A stretch of DNA of 26,497 nucleotides from Streptomyces alboflavus (GTDB taxonomy: Bacteria > Actinomycetota > Actinomycetes > Streptomycetales > Streptomycetaceae). The position numbers were made by a program, and so were the translations under genes. The stretch spans positions 1 through 26,497 of the forward strand of contig NZ_JNXT01000088.1 of NCBI RefSeq assembly GCF_000716675.1. The letters are read 5' to 3'. Shown here piece by piece: positions 13,346 through 26,497 of this stretch; position 1 is the stretch's first letter; every line of letters starts with the position of its first letter. Below the pieces are notes generated by a model, which did not search any database, had not been told where the DNA came from, and was given only the letters and a program-made list of their open reading frames with translations.

Positions 13346-14719
13346 ATGAGCGATTGGCCAGACGCGCGGAACAGCAACGGTGACCGCCACGGGTACGGCA
13401 GCGACGGCGCACAGCCCGAGGGCGCCCGTGTGATGCGCCACGTCCAGCGCGGCGGCCCCTCGGCCCCCGGCCAGCCCGGCTCGGTCCCGCGCCAGCCTCG
13501 CCAGGCTCGCCAGCCCTCGTATGACGACAACGTCTACGACGACCTCTACCGCGACCAGCGCGGCCAGGACCCGCACGCCCACGGCAACGGCCAGGACGGC
13601 TACGACAGCGGCTACAACACCGGCCAGGTGTACGGCTCCCCGCAGGGCCGCCCCGAGGGCCCGCAGGGCCCCGGCGGCCCCGGCGGCCCGCCCGCGCCGC
13701 CGCGCGCGCCCAAGCCGCCGGTCAACTGGAAGAAGCGCATCACCTGGGGCCTGGTGACGTTCCTCGCCCTGCTGATCGTGGTCTCCGTGAGCACGTACTT
13801 CTGGGCGGACTCCAAGCTCAAGCGCGAGGTCGACCTGTCGAAGGTCATCGAGCGGCCCGAGGGCGGCAAGGGCACGAACTACCTGATCGTGGGTTCGGAC
13901 AGCCGCGCGGGGATGTCCGACGAGGAGAAGAAGAAGCTCCACACCGGCTCCGCCGAGGGCAAGCGCACCGACTCGATGATGATCCTGCACGTCGCGGACG
14001 ACGGCGGGAACACGATGATCTCGCTGCCCCGCGACTCGAACGTCATGATCCCCTCCTTCAAGGGCTCGGACTCCGGCAAGATCTACCCCGCGCGGAACTG
14101 CGACACGACGACCCAGGTCTGCAAGAAGCTGAACGCCGCGTACGGCGAGGACGGCCCCGAGCTGCTCGTGCGCACCGTCGAGGCCAACACCGGCCTGCGC
14201 ATCGACCACTACGCGGAGATCGGCTTCGGCGGCTTCGCCAAGATCGTGGACGCGGTCGGCGGCGTGGAGATGAACATCCCCAAGGCCTTCAAGGACAAGA
14301 AGTCCGGCGCCGACTTCGAGGCGGGCAAGCAGACCCTGAACGGCGAGGAGGCCCTGGCCTTCGTCCGCACCCGCTACGCCCTGCCGGGCAGCGACCTGGA
14401 CCGCACCAAGAACCAGCAGAAGTTCCTCGCGGCCCTCGCCAACCAGGCGGCGACGCCCGGGACGGTCATGAACCCGTTCAAGCTGTACCCGACGATGGGC
14501 GCGGGCCTGGACACCCTGGTCGTCGACAAGGACATGGACCTGATGGACGTGGCCTCCATGTTCTGGGCCATGAAGGGCGTCACCGGCGGCGACGGCAAGT
14601 CGATGAACATGCCGATCTCCGGATCCGCGGGCGGCAACCTCGTCTGGGACAAGGCCAAGGTCAAGCAGCTGGTGTCGCAGCTCAACAACGACGAAAAGGT
14701 GACGGTGTCCGGCAACTAG
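13346..14719 (+). CDS. LCP family protein 5
   Basis: A 457-residue LCP protein. The frame is open upstream to 12692, but that part is antisense to the thioesterase. ATG 13346 gives MSDWPDARNSNGDRHGYG, a plausible hydrophilic start, though without a clear ribosome site. The cytoplasmic tail is about 130 residues of Gly/Pro/Asp/Tyr-rich sequence. The transmembrane helix is at about 132-153 (WGLVTFLALLIVVSVSTYFWA). The LCP domain shows TNYLIVGSDSRAG, RTDSMMILHV, ISLPRDSNVMIPSF, EEALAFVRTRYA and LDRTKNQQKFLAAL. It has no LytR_C domain. Its only extracellular cysteines are C252 and C259, in an insert absent from LCP 1-3. It is the last LCP gene of the cluster and is followed by a strong terminator. 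Confidence 0.92.
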   Translation: MSDWPDARNSNGDRHGYGSDGAQPEGARVMRHVQRGGPSAPGQPGSVPRQPRQARQPSYDDNVYDDLYRDQRGQDPHAHGNGQDGYDSGYNTGQVYGSPQGRPEGPQGPGGPGGPPAPPRAPKPPVNWKKRITWGLVTFLALLIVVSVSTYFWADSKLKREVDLSKVIERPEGGKGTNYLIVGSDSRAGMSDEEKKKLHTGSAEGKRTDSMMILHVADDGGNTMISLPRDSNVMIPSFKGSDSGKIYPARNCDTTTQVCKKLNAAYGEDGPELLVRTVEANTGLRIDHYAEIGFGGFAKIVDAVGGVEMNIPKAFKDKKSGADFEAGKQTLNGEEALAFVRTRYALPGSDLDRTKNQQKFLAALANQAATPGTVMNPFKLYPTMGAGLDTLVVDKDMDLMDVASMFWAMKGVTGGDGKSMNMPISGSAGGNLVWDKAKVKQLVSQLNNDEKVTVSGN

Positions 14720-14743
14720 CCGACCCGTCCGGCTCGCCGCTCA

Positions 14744-14793
14744 CGGCGACGGCCCCGGTACCGCGTGCTGACGCGACACCGGGGCCGTCGCCG
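14744..14793 (+). terminator. Strong terminator after LCP 5
   Basis: CGGCGACGGCCCCGGT (14744-14759) pairs perfectly with 14778-14793. An inner stem, CGCGT (14762-14766)/ACGCG (14771-14775), closes a 4-base loop GCTG. Only a 2x2 internal loop separates the stems. It begins 24 bases after the LCP 5 stop. Confidence 0.9.
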
Positions 14794-14842
14794 TTCTCCG
14801 GGAGGTGACGCGACACCGGGGCCGTCGCCGCCTTCCGGGAGG
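14769..14842 (+). repeat. 37-bp tandem duplication of the terminator right arm
   Basis: Positions 14769-14805 and 14806-14842 are adjacent copies differing at three bases. Each contains the full 16-base right arm (14778-14793 and 14815-14830), so the left arm at 14744-14759 could pair with either. Confidence 0.9.
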
Positions 14843-14953
14843 TACGGACGCCGGTGTACCCCGAACGCCTCGTCCGCCGCGAAGCCGCGCGGGCCCCGTG
14901 GCACGGTGGTTCGACCACCACTCACCAGCGCCACCACCGAGCGGAGCCCTGCC

Positions 14954-16117
14954 ATGGCGGACCTCCAGGACGAACTCGACTCCCCGGCCGAGGCAGGGGC
15001 GAACGACGAGCGCACCGCGCCCACCCACGACGTGCGCCCGGTGCCCGCCCCCACCGACGACGGCCGAACGCCCGAGCCCGCGCCGGAGCCCCTGGAGCCG
15101 GAGCTGCGGGACGCCCTGGAGCGGGCCGAGGCCCTGCTCGCCGCGCACCCCGTGGCCGACGGCTACAGCGGCCTGCCCGGAGCACTGCGCGAACTGCCCT
15201 GGTACGACCTGGAGTTGGGCGACACCGGACTGCAGACCGACCTGCCGCGGCTGCGGTCGGGCCGGGTCGGCATGCAGTTCTGGTCGCTCCAGATGCCGGA
15301 CGCCGAGCCCGAGGGCGACCGCGCGGTCAGCTCGGCCCTCGAACAGCTCGACCTGGTCAAGCACGTGGTCGCCCGGTACGCGGGCGGGCTGCGGGTGGCC
15401 CGGGACGCTTCCGAGACCACGGACGCCCGCAACTGCGGCCGCATCGCCACCCTGATCGGCCCGGCGAGCGCCCGCGCCATCGGTGACTCGCTCGGCGCCC
15501 TGCGCTCGCTGCACACCCTCGGCCTCAGCTCCCTCACCCTGGCCGGCACCTCCTGGGCGGGCGCGGACGGGCTGAGCGCGTTCGGCGAGGAGGTGGTGCG
15601 GGAGATGAACCGGCTGGGCGTCCTCGCGGACCTCTCCGGGGCCTCCGAGGCGACGGCGCACCGGGTCCTGGCCGTCTCCAAGGCCCCCTCCCTCTGGACC
15701 CGCTCCGGGGCCCGGGCCCTGCGCGAGCACCCCGCGAACCTCAGCGACGAGCTGCTCGCCGCGGTGGGCGCCGCGAAGGGCCTGTGCCTGGTGCCGCTCA
15801 CGGCCGACCGGGCGGGCCCGACGCTCGGGGACGTGGCCGACCACCTGGAGCATGTGCGCCGGGTGGCGGGGGCCGAGTGCGTCGGGATCTCCGGGATGTA
15901 CGACACCAGGTCCGGGCACCCCGGGGAGCTGGCCGACGCCTCGCGCTACCCGCGGCTGGTCGCCGAGCTGTTCGGGCGGGGCTGGACCGAGGCCGACGTC
16001 ACGGCGCTCACCTGGGGCAACGTGCAGCGCGTGCTGCGGGGCGCGGACTTCACGGCGCGGGCGGCGCGGGAGCGGCGGGGTGCGTCGACGGCGACGATCG
16101 GGCGGCTCGACGGCTGA
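14954..16117 (+). CDS. Degenerate M19 dipeptidase homologue (probable pseudoenzyme)
   Basis: A 387-residue protein homologous along its length to the intact dipeptidase at 21255-22451. All recognised metal and catalytic positions have changed. DGHND is DGYSG (Y71, G73). The bridging-Glu segment MGAEGGHS is IGPASARA. LTHND is LAGTS. DLSHV is DLSGA. FSHSSAR is WTRSGAR. GGDYDG is SGMYDT. The scaffold is kept (VREMNRLGVLADLS, YPRLVAELFGRGWTEADVTALTWGNVQRVL). An extra ~50-residue acidic N-terminus precedes the fold. I chose ATG 14954, with GCGGAG just upstream; the frame opens earlier within the repeat region. Hydrolysis is unlikely; a binding or regulatory role is inferred. It lies just after the LCP cluster. 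Confidence 0.85.
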   Translation: MADLQDELDSPAEAGANDERTAPTHDVRPVPAPTDDGRTPEPAPEPLEPELRDALERAEALLAAHPVADGYSGLPGALRELPWYDLELGDTGLQTDLPRLRSGRVGMQFWSLQMPDAEPEGDRAVSSALEQLDLVKHVVARYAGGLRVARDASETTDARNCGRIATLIGPASARAIGDSLGALRSLHTLGLSSLTLAGTSWAGADGLSAFGEEVVREMNRLGVLADLSGASEATAHRVLAVSKAPSLWTRSGARALREHPANLSDELLAAVGAAKGLCLVPLTADRAGPTLGDVADHLEHVRRVAGAECVGISGMYDTRSGHPGELADASRYPRLVAELFGRGWTEADVTALTWGNVQRVLRGADFTARAARERRGASTATIGRLDG

Positions 16118-16146
16118 GGGCGGCTGCGCGGCTGAGGGCGGCTGCG
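16111..16146 (+). repeat. Perfect 18-bp tandem duplication at a stop codon
   Basis: CGGCTGAGGGCGGCTGCG occurs at 16111-16128 and 16129-16146 without mismatch. The first copy contains the last codons and TGA stop of the degenerate dipeptidase gene, so the stop is duplicated downstream. Confidence 0.9.
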
Positions 16147-16202
16147 TAGGCCCGGGGTGGCTGCGCGGGCGCAGGGCGGCGCACGTCGGCCGACGCGCGT
16201 CG

Positions 16203-16229
16203 GGGCGGGCGGCCGGGCGTCGCCCGCCC
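16203..16229. terminator. Hairpin between convergent genes
   Basis: GGGCGGGC (16203-16210) pairs with GCCCGCCC (16222-16229) across 11 bases. It lies between the degenerate dipeptidase and the convergent VOC gene and could end either transcript. Surrounding sequence is nearly all G and C, so specificity is limited. Confidence 0.4.
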
Positions 16230-16266
16230 TGCCCCGGTCGGCCCGCCCCACCCCACCCCGCCCCGG

Positions 16267-16680
16267 TCAGACCCGGTCAGACTCCGCCACCAGGCAGAAG
16301 CAGAACGGGTGCCCCGCCGGGTCCGCGTACACACGCCAGTCCCGCTTGCCGCCGCCGTCGTCCAGGTCGAGCGGGCGGGCGCCGAGGGCGAAGGCGCGCT
16401 CCTGGGCCGCGTCGATCTCGGCCCAGGTCGAGCCCCCGTCGAAGTCCAGGTGGAACTGCTGGCCGTTGGTGTCGGAGCGCGGCCACGCGGGCGGGGTGTG
16501 GCCGTCGGAGCGCTGGAAGGCGATCCGCACGCGGCCGGGGGCGAGCAGTTCGACCCACTCCCCGTCGCCGTCGTAGTCGTGGATCGTGCCGCCGATGAGC
16601 CCGGCGTAGAACTCGGCGAGGGCGTGCGGATCGGGACAGTCGAGCGCGACGGTGCGCAGGCGGACGACAGGGGTGGCCAT
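16267..16680 (-). CDS. VOC family (glyoxalase-like) protein
   Basis: A 137-residue protein of the vicinal oxygen chelate fold, subgroup glyoxalase-like. It has two beta-alpha-beta-beta-beta halves: VVRLRTVALDCPDPHALAEFYAGLIGG...EWVELL and FHLDFDGGSTWAEIDAAQERAFALGARPL...WRVYADPAGHPFCFC. The closing DPAGHPFCFC is typical. ATG 16680 is preceded by GAGGAG with good spacing; the frame is open to 16761, but that part has no ribosome site and overlaps the regulatory region. It is divergent from the CGNR regulator gene. The substrate is unknown. The shared regulatory region suggests co-control by the neighbour. Confidence 0.85.
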   Translation of the reverse strand: MATPVVRLRTVALDCPDPHALAEFYAGLIGGTIHDYDGDGEWVELLAPGRVRIAFQRSDGHTPPAWPRSDTNGQQFHLDFDGGSTWAEIDAAQERAFALGARPLDLDDGGGKRDWRVYADPAGHPFCFCLVAESDRV

Positions 16681-16704
16681 GAGCTCTCCTCGGTCGGAAT
16701 CTCT

Positions 16705-16770
16705 GTTACCGGTATTCGGCGTTCTCTGGTAACCACTCTGGTTACCCCATAGTGGCCCCATACGGGTAAC
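16705..16770. promoter_or_regulatory. GTTACC/GGTAAC operator array between VOC and CGNR genes
   Basis: Four copies of one hexamer lie in the 99-base divergent gap: GTTACC at 16705-16710, GGTAAC at 16728-16733, GTTACC at 16741-16746 and GGTAAC at 16765-16770. The central pair forms a 19-bp inverted repeat GGTAACC-n5-GGTTACC (16728-16746). Pairing the outer copies gives GTTACC-n17-GGTAAC and GTTACC-n18-GGTAAC. TAACGT (16766-16771), overlapping the last copy, is a possible -10 box for a near-leaderless CGNR transcript. Confidence 0.7.
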
Positions 16771-16779
16771 GTCGCAACC

Positions 16780-17370
16780 ATGAACGACAGAGCGCCCGCA
16801 CCGGGGGGCCTCGCGCTGATCCAGGACCTGGTGAACACGCTGGACATCGAGGCGCGCACCGACGAGCTCGACACCGAGGCGGGGCGGGAACGGTTCGGCC
16901 TCGCCCCCGCGGACGTGGACGCGGCCCGCGAGCTGCGGGAGTCACTGCGGGCTGCCTGCCTCGCCCACGCCGGGCACGCGCCGCACCAGGAGGTGCGCCC
17001 GCTCGGCGAACTCCTGGCCGGGGCGCCCCTGTTGGTGCGCGTGGACGGGTCCGACGGCGCCGCGTCGCTGGTGCCCGCCGACCCGGGGCCGCTGGTGTCC
17101 CGGGTGGCGGCGGCCGTCGCGGAGGCCGTCGTGGCGGGCACCTGGTCCCGCCTCAAGGGCTGCGAGGCCGAGACCTGCCGCTGGGCGTACTACGACCGCA
17201 GCCCCGGGGGCCGGGGCCGCTGGTGCGACATGGGGGTGTGCGGGGCGCGGGCCAAGATGCGCGCGTACCGGGCGCGCCGGGGGCCGGGGCGCGTCCAGGC
17301 CACTGGAGCCACCGGAGCCACCGGAGCCGCGGATCCCGCCCCGCCCGCGGGCCCGTCGGACACGCCCTAG
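16780..17370 (+). CDS. CGNR zinc-finger (ABATE-domain) putative regulator
   Basis: A 196-residue protein with an N-terminal ABATE-like helical domain (LALIQDLVNTLDIEARTDEL; DAARELRESLRAACLAHAG) and a C-terminal zinc finger. Zinc ligands are C128-x4-C133-x15-C149-x4-C154 in KGCEAETCRWAYYDRS...RWCDMGVCGAR. The family hallmark CGNR is CGAR here. Such proteins are thought to be stress- or ligand-responsive transcription factors. The tail has an ATG/TGA-type Gly-Ala-Thr repeat (TGATGATGAA) and is likely disordered. It is divergent from the VOC gene and probably binds the repeated GTTACC motif between them (inference). Its stop overlaps the convergent UDP-glucose dehydrogenase stop within one CTAG. 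Confidence 0.85.
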   Translation: MNDRAPAPGGLALIQDLVNTLDIEARTDELDTEAGRERFGLAPADVDAARELRESLRAACLAHAGHAPHQEVRPLGELLAGAPLLVRVDGSDGAASLVPADPGPLVSRVAAAVAEAVVAGTWSRLKGCEAETCRWAYYDRSPGGRGRWCDMGVCGARAKMRAYRARRGPGRVQATGATGATGAADPAPPAGPSDTP

Positions 17371-21254: not shown

Positions 21255-22451
21255 TCAGCCGTCCAACTGCTCCAGCGTCGCGATCGACGGCCCCCGCCGG
21301 GCCTGCTCGTCCCGCGCCACGTCCTCCGCCGCACCGAGCACACGCACCGCGTTCTGCCACGTCAGCTTGGCGAGGTCGGGCCTGGACCAGCCGCGGTCGA
21401 GGAGTTCCGCGACGAGGTTCGGGTAGCCCGCGACGTCGTCGAGGCCGGACGGGGTGAAGGCCGTGCCGTCGTAGTCGCCGCCGATGCCGATGTGGTCGAT
21501 GCCCGCGACCTCGCGCATGTGGTCGAGGTGGTCGGCGACCGTGGCGGCGGTGGCGATGGGGCGCGGGGTCGACTCCTCGAAGGCCGCGTGCACCTTCATC
21601 GCCTCGGGGGTGGTGTCGAGGTGGTGGAAGCCGTGGGCGCGCATGTTCTCGTCGGCGGCGAGGGTCCAGTCGACGGCCGCCTGGAGCACGAACTTCGGGA
21701 CGAAGGTGGCCATCGCCACGCCGCCGTTCGCGGGCAGGCGTTCCAGGACGTCGTCCGGGATGTTGCGGGGGTGGTCGCACACCGCGCGGGCGGAGGAGTG
21801 CGAGAAGATCACCGGCGCGACCGAGGTGTCCAGGGCCGCCCGCATCGTCGTCGCCGCGACGTGCGAGAGGTCCACGAGCATGCCGACGCGGTTCATCTCC
21901 CGGACCACCTCGTGGCCGAACGGGGAGAGCCCGCCGACGCCGGGTTCGTCCGTCGCCGAGTCCGCCCAGGCGATGCTGTCGTTGTGCGTGAGCGTCATGT
22001 AGCGCACGCCGAGCGTGTGCAGGGCCCGCAGGGTGGCCAGGGAGTTGTTGATGGAGTGGCCGCCCTCGGCGCCCATCAGGGAGGCGATGCGGCCCTCGCT
22101 CCTGGCCGCCTCCATGTCGGCGGCGGTGAGCGCGGCGCGCAGGTCCCCGGGATAGCGGGCCAGCAACTGCCGTACGCAGTCGATCTGTTCGAGCGTCGCG
22201 CTGACCGCCGTGTCGCCCGCCATGTCCGTGCGGACGTACACCGACCAGAACTGCGCGCCGACGCCGCCCGCCCGCAGCCGCCCGATGTCCGTGTGCAGGC
22301 GGCCCGTCTGGTCGGTGGCGATGTCCAGGCGGTCGATGTCGTACCCGGCCTTCTCGCGCAGCGCCCACGGCAGGTCGTTGTGACCGTCGACGACGGGGAA
22401 CTCAGCGAGCAGGGAACGGGCTTCGGGCAGGCGTTCGGGCAGCATCGTCAT
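21255..22451 (-). CDS. M19 membrane dipeptidase family enzyme
   Basis: A 398-residue zinc dipeptidase of the renal dipeptidase family. All expected residues are visible: DGHNDLP (H24, D26), [10 protein letters not shown] (bridging Glu), LTHND (catalytic-site His), VDLSHV and [10 protein letters not shown] (later zinc histidines and substrate Arg), and IGIGGDYDG (Asp). There is no signal peptide, so it is probably cytoplasmic, acting on L,D- or D,D-dipeptides or similar small amides. It starts 4 bases after the purE stop and is therefore probably co-transcribed and translationally coupled. It is an intact paralogue of the degenerate protein at 14954-16117. It ends near a terminator with a T-run. 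Confidence 0.93.
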
Positions 22452-22455
22452 GCGC

Positions 22456-22998
22456 TCACTTTCCCGAGCCGAAGCCGAATCCGGAACCCGCGCCCTCGAC
22501 CTTGGCGCGAAGCCGCTTGCCCTTCTCCGTCGCCTGGTCGTTCAGCTCCTGCTGGAACTCCCGCATCCGGGAGGCGAGTTCGTCGTCGTGCGCCGCCAGC
22601 ATGCGCGCCGCGAGCAGGCCCGCGTTGCGCGCGCCGCCCACCGAGACGGTCGCCACGGGCACGCCCGCGGGCATCTGCACGATGGAGAGGAGGCTGTCCA
22701 TGCCGTCGAGGTACTTGAGCGGGACGGGGACGCCGATCACCGGCAGCGTGGTGACCGAGGCGAGCATGCCGGGCAGGTGGGCGGCGCCGCCCGCGCCCGC
22801 GATGATCGCCTTCAGGCCGCGCTCCTCGGCGTGCTCGCCGTACGAGATCATCTCGCGCGGCATGCGGTGCGCGGAGACGACGTCGACCTCGTAGGGGACC
22901 TCGAACTCGTCGAGGGCCTTCGCGGCGGCCTCCATCACGGGCCAGTCGGAGTCCGAGCCCATGACGATGCCGACAACGGGGGCAACGGGAGAAGTCAT
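22456..22998 (-). CDS. purE: 5-(carboxyamino)imidazole ribonucleotide mutase
   Basis: A 180-residue class I PurE that converts N5-CAIR to CAIR in purine synthesis. The family motifs are [85 protein letters not shown] charged Gly-rich tail ([13 protein letters not shown]) is a small extension. Its ATG overlaps the purK stop (ATGA, 22995-22998), giving translational coupling with purK. It normally acts as an octamer (family knowledge). Confidence 0.97.
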
Positions 22999-24146
22999 TC
23001 GGTGATCGTCCCTCTGAGGTAGCCGGCCGCGTGACGGGCGCGGTCAAGGACGGCGTCAAGGTCGTCGCCGTAGGTGTTGACGTGACCGACCTTGCGGCCG
23101 GGCTTCACGTCCTTGCCGTACATGTGGATCTTCAGCTGCGGGTCGCGGGCCATGCAGTGCAGGTACGCGGTGTACATGTCGGGGTAGTCGCCCCCGAGGA
23201 CGTTCGCCATGACCGTCCACTTCGCGCGCGGGCGGGGGTCGCCGAGCGGCAGGTCGAGGACCGCGCGGACGTGGTTGGCGAACTGGGAGGTGACCGCGCC
23301 GTCCTGGCTCCAGTGTCCGGAATTGTGCGGTCGCATCGCGAGTTCGTTGACCAGGACGCGGCCGTCGGCGGTCTCGAACAGCTCGACCGCGAGATGCCCG
23401 ACCACGCCCAGCTCCTTGGCCACGCGCAGCGCCAGCTCCTGGGCCTGCCCCGCGAGCTCCTCGCTCAGCCCGGGCGCGGGCGCGATCACCGTGTCGCACA
23501 CGCCGTCGACCTGCCGGGACTCCACGACGGGGTACGCCACGGCCTGCCCGTGCGGCGACCGGACGACGTTCGCCGCCAGTTCCCGTACGAAGCCGACCAT
23601 CTCCTCGGCGAGCACCGGGACGCCCGCGCGGAAGGGGTCCTCGGCCTGTTCCGGCGAGCGCACGACCCACACGCCCTTGCCGTCGTACCCGCCGCGCACG
23701 GTCTTGAGGACGACCGGGAAGCCGTCACCCTCCGTGGCCCCCTCGGCCGCGAAGGCCACGACGTCCGCCGGGTCCTTCACGATGCGGTGGCGGGGGCAGG
23801 GCACCCCGAGCTCGTCCAGCTTCGCGCGCATCACCCCCTTGTCCTGGGCGTGCACCAACGCGTCGGGCCCCGGGCGCACGGGGATGCCGTCCGCCTCCAG
23901 GGCCCGTAGATGCTCGGTGGGTACGTGTTCGTGATCGAAGGTGATCACGTCGCAGCCCCGCGCGAAGTCACGCAGCGTGTCGAGGTCGCGATAGTCGCCG
24001 ATGACGACATCGCTGACGACCTGCGCCGCGGAATCCTGCGGGGTGTCACTGAGGAGCTTGAACCTGATGCCGAGCGGGATGCCCGCCTCGTGTGTCATAC
24101 GAGCGAGCTGCCCCCCGCCGACCATGCCGACTACCGGGAACGTCAC
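22995..24146 (-). CDS. purK: 5-(carboxyamino)imidazole ribonucleotide synthase
   Basis: A 383-residue ATP-grasp enzyme that carboxylates AIR to N5-CAIR with ATP and bicarbonate, feeding PurE. Motifs: [23 protein letters not shown] (N-terminal), [40 protein letters not shown] (ATP-grasp lysine and glycine loop), [34 protein letters not shown], and [11 protein letters not shown]. The frame opens to 24257, but GTG 24146 begins the conserved fold. It has no ribosome site and a TACCCT box 6 bases upstream, so it is probably leaderless. It is the first gene of the purK-purE-dipeptidase operon. Confidence 0.96.
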
Positions 24147-24152
24147 ACCCAC

Positions 24153-24158
24153 AGGGTA
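24153..24158 (-). promoter_or_regulatory. Candidate -10 box for leaderless purK
   Basis: On the minus strand, TACCCT is followed after 6 bases by the purK GTG, the spacing expected when transcription starts at the start codon. It is the same hexamer as before the gene at 2996. No clear -35 is visible. Confidence 0.45.
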
Positions 24159-24255
24159 TCGGCCATCCGGGAGCGGCCCGATCCCGTGCACCGGCGTCAC
24201 AGGGGTGCCACGGAGTGACGCCGTCCACGAGCGCCGACGGAGGTCGCTGGTTAGC

Positions 24256-24414
24256 ATGGCTGGGTTGACGCGAACGAAAAAGACGGATCGACCGGGAGAG
24301 ACGACGGATCGACTGGGGAAACCGACCGGCGATGCGGACGCGGACCACCCGCTCGACTTCGATCCCGTCGACGGACCACACGCAATCGACGGGGGCTGGG
24401 GCGACCAACCATGA
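24256..24414 (+). CDS. Possible small coupled ORF before the GtrA gene
   Basis: A 52-residue hydrophilic, acidic reading frame (MAGLTRTKKTDRPG...DGGWGDQP) whose TGA overlaps the GtrA ATG as ATGA, a coupling arrangement. Against it, third-position GC is about 70 percent by hand count, low for this genome, and no family is recognised. TAGCAT (24252-24257) overlaps the ATG and fits a -10 box, so the region may instead be a 5' UTR. It contains two GACGGATCGAC direct repeats 21 bases apart (24282-24292, 24303-24313). Confidence 0.25.
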   Translation: MAGLTRTKKTDRPGETTDRLGKPTGDADADHPLDFDPVDGPHAIDGGWGDQP

Positions 24415-25000: not shown

Positions 25001-26362
25001 TCAGCGCACCGTGCCCCCGGAGGCGTCTGACGCTTCGTGATTCTTACCGTCCCTGCCGTCCCTGCCGTCCCTGCTTTCCTTGCTGTCCTTGCCGTCCTTG
25101 CCGTCCTTGCCGTCCTTGCCGTCCCGGTATGACGGCGTACGGGACAGGAAGAGCGCGAACACCGGCGGCTTGCCCTGGAGCATCTCCAGACGGCCGCCGT
25201 CCGCTTCGGCCAGATCCCGGGCCACCGCGAGGCCGATTCCTGTCGAATTGCGACCGCTGATGGCCCGCTCGAAGATCCGCGCGCCGAGGTCGGCGGGCAC
25301 GCCCGGGCCGCTGTCCGTGACCTCCACGACGGCCTGGTTGCCGGTGACGCGGGTGCGCAGGGCGACGGTGCCGCCGCCGTGCATCAGGGAGTTCTCGATC
25401 AGCGCGGCCAGGACCTGGGCGACCGCGCCCGGGGTACCGACGGCGTGCAGATGGCGTTTGCCGGAGCTGACGATGGCGCGGCCCGCGCTGCGGTAGGCGG
25501 GGCGCCACTCCTCGAGCTGCTGCTTGATCACCTCGTCCAGGTCGAAGGTGACGGCGGAGCCGGTGCTGGGGTCACGGGAGTTGGTGAGCAGCCGCTCCAC
25601 GACGTCCGTGAGGCGCTCGACCTGTGTGAGGGCGACCGTGGCCTCCTCCTTCACCGTGTCCAGGTCGTCGGTGAGGGTGATCTCCTCCAGGCGCATGGAC
25701 AGGGCGGTCAGCGGGGTGCGGAGCTGGTGGGACGCGTCCGCGGCCAGGCGCCGCTCCGCGGTGAGCATGCGGGCGATGCGTTCGGCGCTGCCGTCCAGGA
25801 CGTCGGCCACGCGGTCCAGCTCGGGGACGCCGTAGCGGCGGTGGCGGGGGCGGGGGTCGCCGGAGCCGAGGCGCTCCGCGGTCTCCGCGAGGTCGGTGAG
25901 GGGGGAGGTCAGGCGGTTGGCCTGGCGTACGGCGAGGAGGACCGCGGCGACGATGGCGAGGAGGGCGACGCCGCCGATGATGAGCAGGGTCCGGCCGACC
26001 TCCTGGGTGACGGCCGTCCGGGGCTCCTCGACCGTGACCTTCTCGCCCTCCTCCCCGTCCCGGGTGGCGCGGATCACGTCGCCCGTGGGGCGGGTGCCCA
26101 CCTCGATGGGGGCGCGGCCCGGGATCTCGATGCGGGCGTAGCGGTCGGTGTCGACCTGCTTGCGCAGCACCTCCCCGCTGACCCGCTCGTCGCTCAGCAG
26201 CCGGCTGTCCACGATGCCCGCGAGGCGCAGGGCCTCCGAGTCCACCCGCTCCTGGGCGCTGTTGCTGATCGTGCGGGTCTCGACGATCACCAGGGAGACG
26301 CCGAAGACGGCGATCACCACGAGTACTACGGCGAGGGTCGAGTTGATGAGGCGACGACGCAC
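25001..26362 (-). CDS. HAMP-domain sensor histidine kinase
   Basis: A 453-residue membrane sensor kinase. GTG 26362 is preceded by GGAGGG; the frame stays open to the right edge, but without a better start. It has TM1 (about 7-28, LINSTLAVVLVVIAVFGVSLVIV), an extracellular sensor (29-122) of no recognised family, TM2 (about 124-146), HAMP (RLTSPLTDLAETAERLGSGD), and DHp with H212 in AADASHQLRTPLTALSMRLE. The ATPase has the N box ALIENSLMHGGG, G1 VTDSGPGVP and G2 NSTGIGLAVARDLAEADGG. The tail carries nine KDG/RDG-like triplets. Its response regulator is presumably upstream, beyond the edge. The signal is unknown. Confidence 0.94.
   Translation of the reverse strand: MRRRLINSTLAVVLVVIAVFGVSLVIVETRTISNSAQERVDSEALRLAGIVDSRLLSDERVSGEVLRKQVDTDRYARIEIPGRAPIEVGTRPTGDVIRATRDGEEGEKVTVEEPRTAVTQEVGRTLLIIGGVALLAIVAAVLLAVRQANRLTSPLTDLAETAERLGSGDPRPRHRRYGVPELDRVADVLDGSAERIARMLTAERRLAADASHQLRTPLTALSMRLEEITLTDDLDTVKEEATVALTQVERLTDVVERLLTNSRDPSTGSAVTFDLDEVIKQQLEEWRPAYRSAGRAIVSSGKRHLHAVGTPGAVAQVLAALIENSLMHGGGTVALRTRVTGNQAVVEVTDSGPGVPADLGARIFERAISGRNSTGIGLAVARDLAEADGGRLEMLQGKPPVFALFLSRTPSYRDGKDGKDGKDGKDSKESRDGRDGRDGKNHEASDASGGTVR
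25046..25126 (-). repeat. Nine 9-base tandem repeats in the kinase tail
   Basis: Nine units of 9 bases encode RDG, KDG, KDG, KDG, KDS, KES, RDG, RDG, RDG near the kinase C-terminus. Units are in frame, so slippage changes only tail length. Confidence 0.85.
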
Positions 26363-26497
26363 GGGGCCCTCCGGCCGGGCAGGGGGACGGACCACCCCAG
26401 TGTGCCCCTCGCCTGCCGTCCGCCGAGCCACTGTGTCCCCTCGCGGCAACCGGCCCCGCCGCTCCGCGGCGGTTCTCCCCCACCCACCCACCCGCAC
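26363..26497. other. Sequence upstream of the kinase start
   Basis: No gene is supported here. On the minus strand the kinase frame is open throughout but lacks an earlier start with a ribosome site. A 7-bp stem, CCGCCGC (26456-26462)/GCGGCGG (26466-26472), with a 3-base loop is the only structure seen. The response regulator gene expected for this kinase may end beyond the edge. Confidence 0.5.

Follow-up and report, generated by a model that had tools for sequence, protein, structure and literature searches.

What is a dipeptidase gene kept for once its metal centre has gone, and is it kept at all? The question is raised by a 26,497-nucleotide stretch of Streptomyces alboflavus DNA (hereafter the window), which encodes two members of the M19 dipeptidase family, one with all five expected metal ligands and the other with none. 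An earlier note, made from the letters of this stretch, had described the latter as a selected pseudo-dipeptidase beside a cluster of LCP genes, and had proposed that it binds peptidoglycan peptides or regulates the real dipeptidase.

The pseudo-dipeptidase gene forms an uninterrupted frame from ATG to stop, with a GC3 of 0.97 compared to 0.88-0.97 in the adjoining genes, consistent with the intact frame and normal codon use reported earlier. By sequence, its product is a member of the M19 family, scoring 254.6 bits against the Pfam profile PF01244 (positions 3-318 of 319), well above the gathering cut-off of 26. Searches of NCBIfam revealed no model matching the window protein or four of its relatives, and an Rfam search of 14700-16800 gave no match at the gathering score. 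The active-type paralogue, with 46-48% identity to the window protein in two local matches, is a canonical M19 dipeptidase closely related to PDB 3id7 (715 bits); the entry, listed under “Dipeptidase” and “renal dipeptidase”, is presumably Sco3058 of S. coelicolor. The genome contains one further, distant M19 relative on another contig.

Alignment of the two paralogues revealed that each of the five ligands of the active enzyme is replaced in the window protein: H24 by Y71, D26 by G73, the bridging E129 by A171, H197 by G229 and H218 by R250, the five being the HxD motif, the bridging Glu and two His of the binuclear metal site. In addition, D326 of the active enzyme corresponds to M315. The ligand-by-ligand comparison bears out the replacements that the earlier note had read from the paralogue, namely HND to YSG, bridging Glu to Ala, DLSHV to DLSGA, FSHSS to WTRSG and GGDYDG to SGMYDT, leaving none of five ligands in the window protein against five in the paralogue. 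The remaining one, LTHND to LAGTS, proved not to be a substitution, as residues 156-158 are in fact deleted. The loss is conserved among orthologues, as expected from that reading: 116 of 121 sequences (the window protein plus the best 120 of 1859 homologues) have no ligand and five have one, compared to five ligands in 72 of 72 active paralogues. In the set of loci (the best 80 of 491 candidates plus the window), 76 members have no ligand and five have one. Within the main clade the replacement residues are nearly fixed and show no drift (Table 1); S251 and G314 are each present in 81 of 81 sequences and R254 in 73 of 81 (best 80 of 491 loci plus the window). Moreover, the two paralogues have different residues, each conserved to at least 95%, at 24 positions, including Y71, G73, P170, A171, R250, R257, C278, P281, S313, H322, Q358 and F366. 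The bridging Glu is also missing in all divergent members read, in several of which position 250 is His, Asn, Gln, Cys, Tyr or Glu.

The changes extend well beyond the ligands. A total of 59 positions of the active protein (48-53, 156-158, 167-173, 253-291 and 297-300) are missing in the pseudo family, that is, absent in more than 90% of the pseudo set, and the N-terminus is longer by about 47 residues (A58 is aligned to A11), so that the rest of the scaffold is not intact, contrary to the earlier description. As the missing positions include the LTHND loop and the segment 253-291, both deleted in the window protein, the scaffold has been cut back around the former active site.

Table 1. Features of the pseudo-dipeptidase locus in the window. 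Counts out of 81 refer to the best 80 of 491 candidate loci plus the window, those out of 121 to the window protein plus the best 120 of 1859 homologues, and those out of 80 to the best 80 of 491 loci.
Feature	Position	Strand	Basis or frequency
Conserved upstream element, GAACG-N13-GAAG-N13-GTGnnACGGT	14863..14908	+	Strict pattern, single match in own genome
Likely ribosome-binding site, CGGAG (predicted role)	14942..14946	+	Visible in most listed upstream regions
Pseudo-dipeptidase gene, 387 aa, Peptidase_M19 relative, 0 metal ligands	14954..16117	+	ORF, Pfam, alignment
N-terminal motif MADLQDEL...AEAG, aa 1-15	14954..14998	+	Absent from active paralogue
Variable acidic/Pro-rich linker, about aa 16-52	14999..15109	+	Pooled NG86 dN/dS 0.86 (17 codons)
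Y71-S72-G73, replacing HxD motif (H24, D26)	15164..15172	+	Y 77/81, G 80/81
A171, replacing bridging Glu E129	15464..15466	+	A 81/81; A 120, V 1 of 121
G229, replacing ligand H197	15638..15640	+	G 75/81, H 4, Y 2
R250, replacing ligand H218	15701..15703	+	R 81/81
M315-Y316-D317, replacing D326-Y327-D328	15896..15904	+	T 75/81, M 4/81 at 315; D317 81/81
C-terminal segment LTWGNVQRVLRGADFTARA, with residues Q358, R362 and F366 fixed in the pseudo family only	16001..16063	+	Alignment
Glyoxalase-like gene, usual downstream neighbour of pseudo gene	16267..16761	-	In 76/80 loci
Active-type M19 dipeptidase paralogue, five metal ligands present	21255..22451	-	Pfam 383.3 bits
purE	22456..22998	-	TIGR01162
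purK	22995..24257	-	Pfam ATP-grasp and PurK_C
Histidine kinase, DraK-type N-terminal domain, adjoining GtrA	25001-26497		In 66/80 loci

The added N-terminal residues consist of a short motif followed by the variable linker. All of the best 120 of 1859 homologues, with starts as predicted by the sources, begin with M-A-[DEGN]-L; the same pattern was used to choose the starts in the 80 loci and in 28 divergent loci, which are not independent evidence in this respect. A frame with the pattern was not found in five of the 28 divergent loci (G107, G111, G113, G020 and G124), three of which were later read to start with MADL, and G020 shows ADLHDD at its start. Reading without the pattern gave MADL or MAGL in the frames of G015, G004, G025, G012, G006, G010, G021 and G002, and the motif is also present in the reduced and transitional forms read. 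Among the other proteins of four genomes, no outside match to the motif was better than E 0.015. Inspected by eye, the M-A-[DEGN]-L start does not resemble a signal sequence, which would make the binding of peptidoglycan peptides outside the cell, one of the two roles proposed earlier, unlikely.

At least 76 of the 151 Streptomyces genomes with a completeness of at least 95%, the window's own included, carry the pseudo gene. Of these, 71 give matches with E of 1.2e-57 or better (a count by eye of the rows above all those of the active gene), and five more (G004, G015, G025, G065 and G162) carry a shortened form; the second matches of G099, G123 and G160 were left out of the count. At E 1e-30, a threshold that the shortened forms pass, no pseudo gene was found in 51 genomes from other genera of the family (16 genera). 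Unusual matches outside the genus, in G195, G205 (twice) and G225, were rejected because both the HND motif and the Glu are present in them. That of G198, its second, belongs to the active-type gene. The matches of G195 and G205 (L154, L155) represent another M19 branch, from a related genus, that keeps HND, the Glu and both His, with LTWSRTT replacing LTHND.

In two maximum-likelihood trees, of 22 and 25 rows, the pseudo proteins form one clade with a support of 100/100. The branching of this clade largely parallels that of the active paralogues by eye, with G010 and G012 placed differently. In the 25-row tree, rooted at the midpoint for drawing, the active Streptomyces copies do not form one clade apart from other genera. 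The first branch within the drawn pseudo clade comprises the transitional forms of G107 and G111, which keep most of the loop following LT, while the bridging Glu is already Ala (G-S-A-G-G) and D326 is Gly; that of G107 also retains the first His. Both transitional members adjoin the active gene (L161:1945-3135 and L162:1987-3264). A further 23 divergent members lack LTHND; their residue 71 is H, C, Y, F or R, and around position 250 they show H, N, Q, R, Y or E. The group of G012 and G153 is characterized by H/C71, N72, T/S73, H/N/Q250 and G317. Much more of the barrel is lost in the five shortened members, of 305-312 residues (L114, L115, L116, L150 and L151), and their MADL/MAGL start and C-terminal segment persist.

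Codon analysis revealed that the pseudo gene is kept under purifying selection, in agreement with the earlier note. Under the IQ-TREE codon model GY+F3X4, omega is 0.096 for the pseudo gene (24 genes) and 0.082 for its barrel, compared to 0.055 for the active gene (23 genes); a separate fit to the 15 N-terminal columns returned 1.000, a value that was not used. Over 38 disjoint close pairs, the barrel has a pooled Nei-Gojobori dN/dS of 0.281, compared to 0.86 in the linker and 0.48 in the N-terminal motif (12 codons), and the active gene, on 32 of the 38 pairs, has 0.186. The latter values exceed those of the codon model, perhaps because codon bias lowers the apparent synonymous change. Nevertheless, both methods give the same order, constraint being stronger on the active gene than on the pseudo barrel; by the Nei-Gojobori counts, the barrel is under far stronger constraint than the linker of the same gene. 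The N-terminal motif is no more constrained than the barrel within the main clade, where the majority fraction is 0.73 over residues 1-20 compared to 0.75-0.93 from residue 61; the case for the motif therefore rests on its persistence across sub-clades. Frames are full-length, with at least 362 residues, in the best 80 of 491 loci, where decayed copies are under-represented because the loci were chosen as best matches. Against these stands a single relict, in G024, where only a C-terminal fragment is found beside the active gene (L117:2155-2406). The random decay that the earlier note had named as evidence against its reading was seen in this one case, indicating loss in one lineage. Apparent internal stops in G012 and G006 were rejected as signs of decay, as both frames are open from MADL to the end. 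By sequence, the window protein has an M19 domain with a disabled metal site and its gene is retained under purifying selection, which makes it very probably a pseudo-dipeptidase of the DPEP3-like kind.

The gene neighbourhood points away from the LCP genes. Five LCP domains are indeed encoded upstream of the pseudo gene in the window, as the earlier note had it, but the functional link drawn from them is not supported in that form, since an LCP gene lies directly upstream in only 6 of the best 80 of 491 loci; the LCP link was thus rejected as the ancestral context. The active dipeptidase gene, in contrast, is found upstream on the same strand in 69 of these 80 loci, often 122-185 bp away, downstream on the other strand in three and outside the locus in eight. 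The common order is histidine kinase, GtrA, purK, purE, active dipeptidase and pseudo gene, followed by glyoxalase-like, CGNR, UDP-glucose dehydrogenase, acyl-CoA dehydrogenase and LCP; purE and purK each occur near the pseudo gene in 71, CGNR in 68 and UDP-glucose dehydrogenase in 72 of the same 80 loci. Compared to this order, the segment 14954-20057 of the window, from the pseudo gene to the acyl-CoA dehydrogenase gene, is inverted. The same inversion is seen in three of 80 loci, those flanked by LCP on one side and by the active gene on the other. In such inverted loci the pseudo gene follows LCP and lies some kilobases from the active gene (5.1 kb in the window), in convergent orientation; three more loci have LCP directly upstream and the active gene not shown. 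Proximity to LCP is a product of local rearrangement. A 37-bp unit, repeated 2.4 times, occupies 14769-14854, between the LCP gene and the pseudo gene's upstream element. We take the dipeptidase gene of S. coelicolor to be SCO3058, and by position the pseudo gene of this species would be SCO3057. The S. coelicolor purE and purK are SCO3059 and SCO3060, according to a passage of PMC6344877.

A conserved element precedes the pseudo gene (Table 1), with equivalents in loci L034-L113 and parts visible before the shortened and divergent forms. Its end-to-end spacing is 34 or 35 bases in 60 of 81 regions and different in two, and in 19 the two ends were not both found; its last part, where found (68 of 81 regions), lies 45-83 bp before the start. 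With a stricter pattern, three of 11 genomes gave a single site, which in each case immediately precedes the pseudo gene; the remaining eight gave no site although most carry the gene, showing that the pattern misses relatives. No co-regulated genes were found in the 11 genomes with this stricter pattern, and a regulon search with a lax pattern gave noise. The element is probably the pseudo gene's own promoter or operator, and its separate conservation suggests that the pseudo gene is not simply co-transcribed with the active gene.

The evolutionary rates offer a further clue to the partner. We calculated partial correlations of protein distances among nine genes of the locus in 46 species, thinned from the 60 of 80 loci (best of 491) that have all nine. 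The pair of pseudo and active dipeptidase ranks first of 36 gene pairs, with a partial r of 0.40 and a small lead over GtrA-UGDH (0.38) and HK-glyoxalase (0.35), whereas the pseudo gene gives -0.12 with purE, 0.09 with purK, 0.07 with UGDH and 0.19 with ACAD. The pair also comes first when the loci are split by gap, with 0.49 for gaps under 350 bp (32 species) and 0.46 for the remaining loci (18 species). Among 30 random subsets, using the barrel only, it is first in 22 and second in 8. The observed r was reached in none of 500 permutations, as was equally the case for pseudo-ACAD. Gene conversion was rejected as the cause of the covariation, as the identity of the paralogues is 0.473 within genomes and 0.472 between genomes (72 genomes). 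Co-occurrence is uninformative about partnership: irrespective of the pseudo gene, an M19 match at E 1e-30 or better is found in 150 of the 151 Streptomyces genomes. Altogether, the covariation lends modest and indirect support to a link with the active enzyme.

Taken together, the window protein is very probably a conserved metal-free M19 pseudoenzyme, for which we propose the following history. A dipeptidase gene beside purEK would have been duplicated once, in or before the ancestor of Streptomyces. One copy would have lost the bridging Glu and most other ligands and then the active-site loops, and gained the N-terminal MADLQDE motif on a flexible linker. Purifying selection has kept this copy in about half of the sampled Streptomyces, the rest having lost it or never had it. 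Binuclear metal hydrolases depend on their metal centre for catalysis; with this centre gone, dipeptide hydrolysis by the known mechanism is excluded, and the protein would not hydrolyse dipeptides. As the pocket varies among sub-clades, whereas the core of the scaffold is retained along with the N-terminal motif and the C-terminal segment, we infer that the protein may act via contacts of these three parts with other proteins. Renal dipeptidase and other M19 enzymes form dimers. Given this shared ancestry, together with the tandem gene order and the rate covariation, the neighbouring active dipeptidase is the likeliest partner, and the pseudo-dipeptidase may tether or tune it; that the two are partners is quite possible, if short of probable. 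Regulation of the real dipeptidase, the second role suggested in the earlier note, is thus the reading that we prefer on modest evidence. The account as a whole, from the single duplication through the loss of ligands and loops to retention as a non-catalytic partner of the neighbouring dipeptidase, remains tentative, and we count against it that about half of the Streptomyces genomes have no full match, that G024 has a fragment only, that the lead in covariation is small and that the separate upstream element speaks against simple co-transcription. A rather doubtful extension is that the MADL motif and the metal-dead M19 scaffold would be the only constants of the family, the protein being a dedicated heteromeric regulator of its tandem parent enzyme, with sub-lineages that would preserve the successive steps: loss of the ligands while the loops were still partly present, deletion of the loops, refilling of the pocket with Arg and a drastic reduction of the barrel.

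The strongest rival is a ligand-binding role of the main-clade pocket, in which Y71, R250, R254, D317 and H322 would bind an anionic small molecule, for example an amino acid, a peptide or a nucleotide intermediate, and the protein would serve as a sensor or a non-metal enzyme. The conservation of this pocket, with R250, A171 and D317 invariant in the main-clade set, G73, Y71 and R254 close behind, and the 24 positions at which the two paralogues have each fixed a different residue, would fit such a role. However, the G012/G153 group has other residues and the region is largely missing in G004, G015, G025, G065 and G162, so the main-clade pocket is not the shared function; moreover, its fixed residues may merely repack a hole. 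We regard this role as rather unlikely. Catalysis by a different metal site, or as a mononuclear hydrolase, is a very improbable reading: five of 121 members keep one old ligand and other polar residues are conserved (H65, C278 and H322), yet the bridging Glu is gone in the members read, and no new set of metal-type residues common to the sub-clades appears around the old site in our reading of the sequences.

Two further explanations dispense with the neighbouring dipeptidase. The protein might be a non-catalytic adaptor for another partner, such as the envelope or purine enzymes encoded nearby, given the recurrent synteny with purE, purK, glyoxalase-like, CGNR and UDP-glucose dehydrogenase genes and the motif on its flexible linker. 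Covariation is nevertheless strongest with the active dipeptidase and negligible to low with purE, purK and UGDH, though ACAD stands somewhat higher, and LCP is rarely the direct upstream neighbour; we judge this adaptor role distinctly unlikely. A functionless duplicate in slow decay could explain why about half of the 151 Streptomyces genomes have no full match, why G024 keeps only a C-terminal fragment and why the pseudo gene evolves faster than the active copy. It is hard to reconcile with full-length frames in the window and the 80 loci, although these were picked as the best matches of 491, with an omega of about 0.08-0.1 for which the near-neutral linker serves as an internal control, and with the conserved upstream element. 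Decay is largely refuted by purifying selection, and we give it very little weight.

The source names of the pseudo-dipeptidase homologues, “dipeptidase”, “membrane dipeptidase” and “peptidase M19”, are probably misnomers, in a family carried by at least 76 of 151 sampled Streptomyces genomes. The genus holds the active parent, transitional, fully dead and shortened forms as well as a relict side by side, and thus allows the conversion of an enzyme into a non-enzyme to be followed step by step and by experiment, which also bears on what a dead copy is kept for.

In the open-licence literature, we found no bacterial case of a metal-free M19 protein and no mention of SCO3057. The closest known relatives are of two kinds. 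The 3id7-type dipeptidase belongs to the same family as the window protein by sequence (233 bits) but is of the active type, which keeps the five ligands; the window protein retains no ligand, is missing 59 positions and begins with the additional motif and linker. Mammalian DPEP3 (PDB 6vgo) resembles the window protein as an M19 member with a damaged metal centre, aligning with DLSY for DLSH, LTFT for LTHN and GNYD for GDYD. To judge from the title of a study by Hayashi et al. 2020, DPEP3 is reportedly without dipeptidase activity. It is called a dipeptidase in passages of PMC12229892 and PMC12283963, and is placed in the GPI-anchored group in a passage of the former (PMC12229892). A metal-damaged M19 protein is thus known in mammals, and the Streptomyces family, undescribed as far as our searches of open-licence papers show, goes further. 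In DPEP3 the HND motif, the bridging Glu and the SHS histidine are still present, whereas the Streptomyces family has lost the five ligands together with the loops and carries the MADL motif, and the two are likely to have arisen independently.
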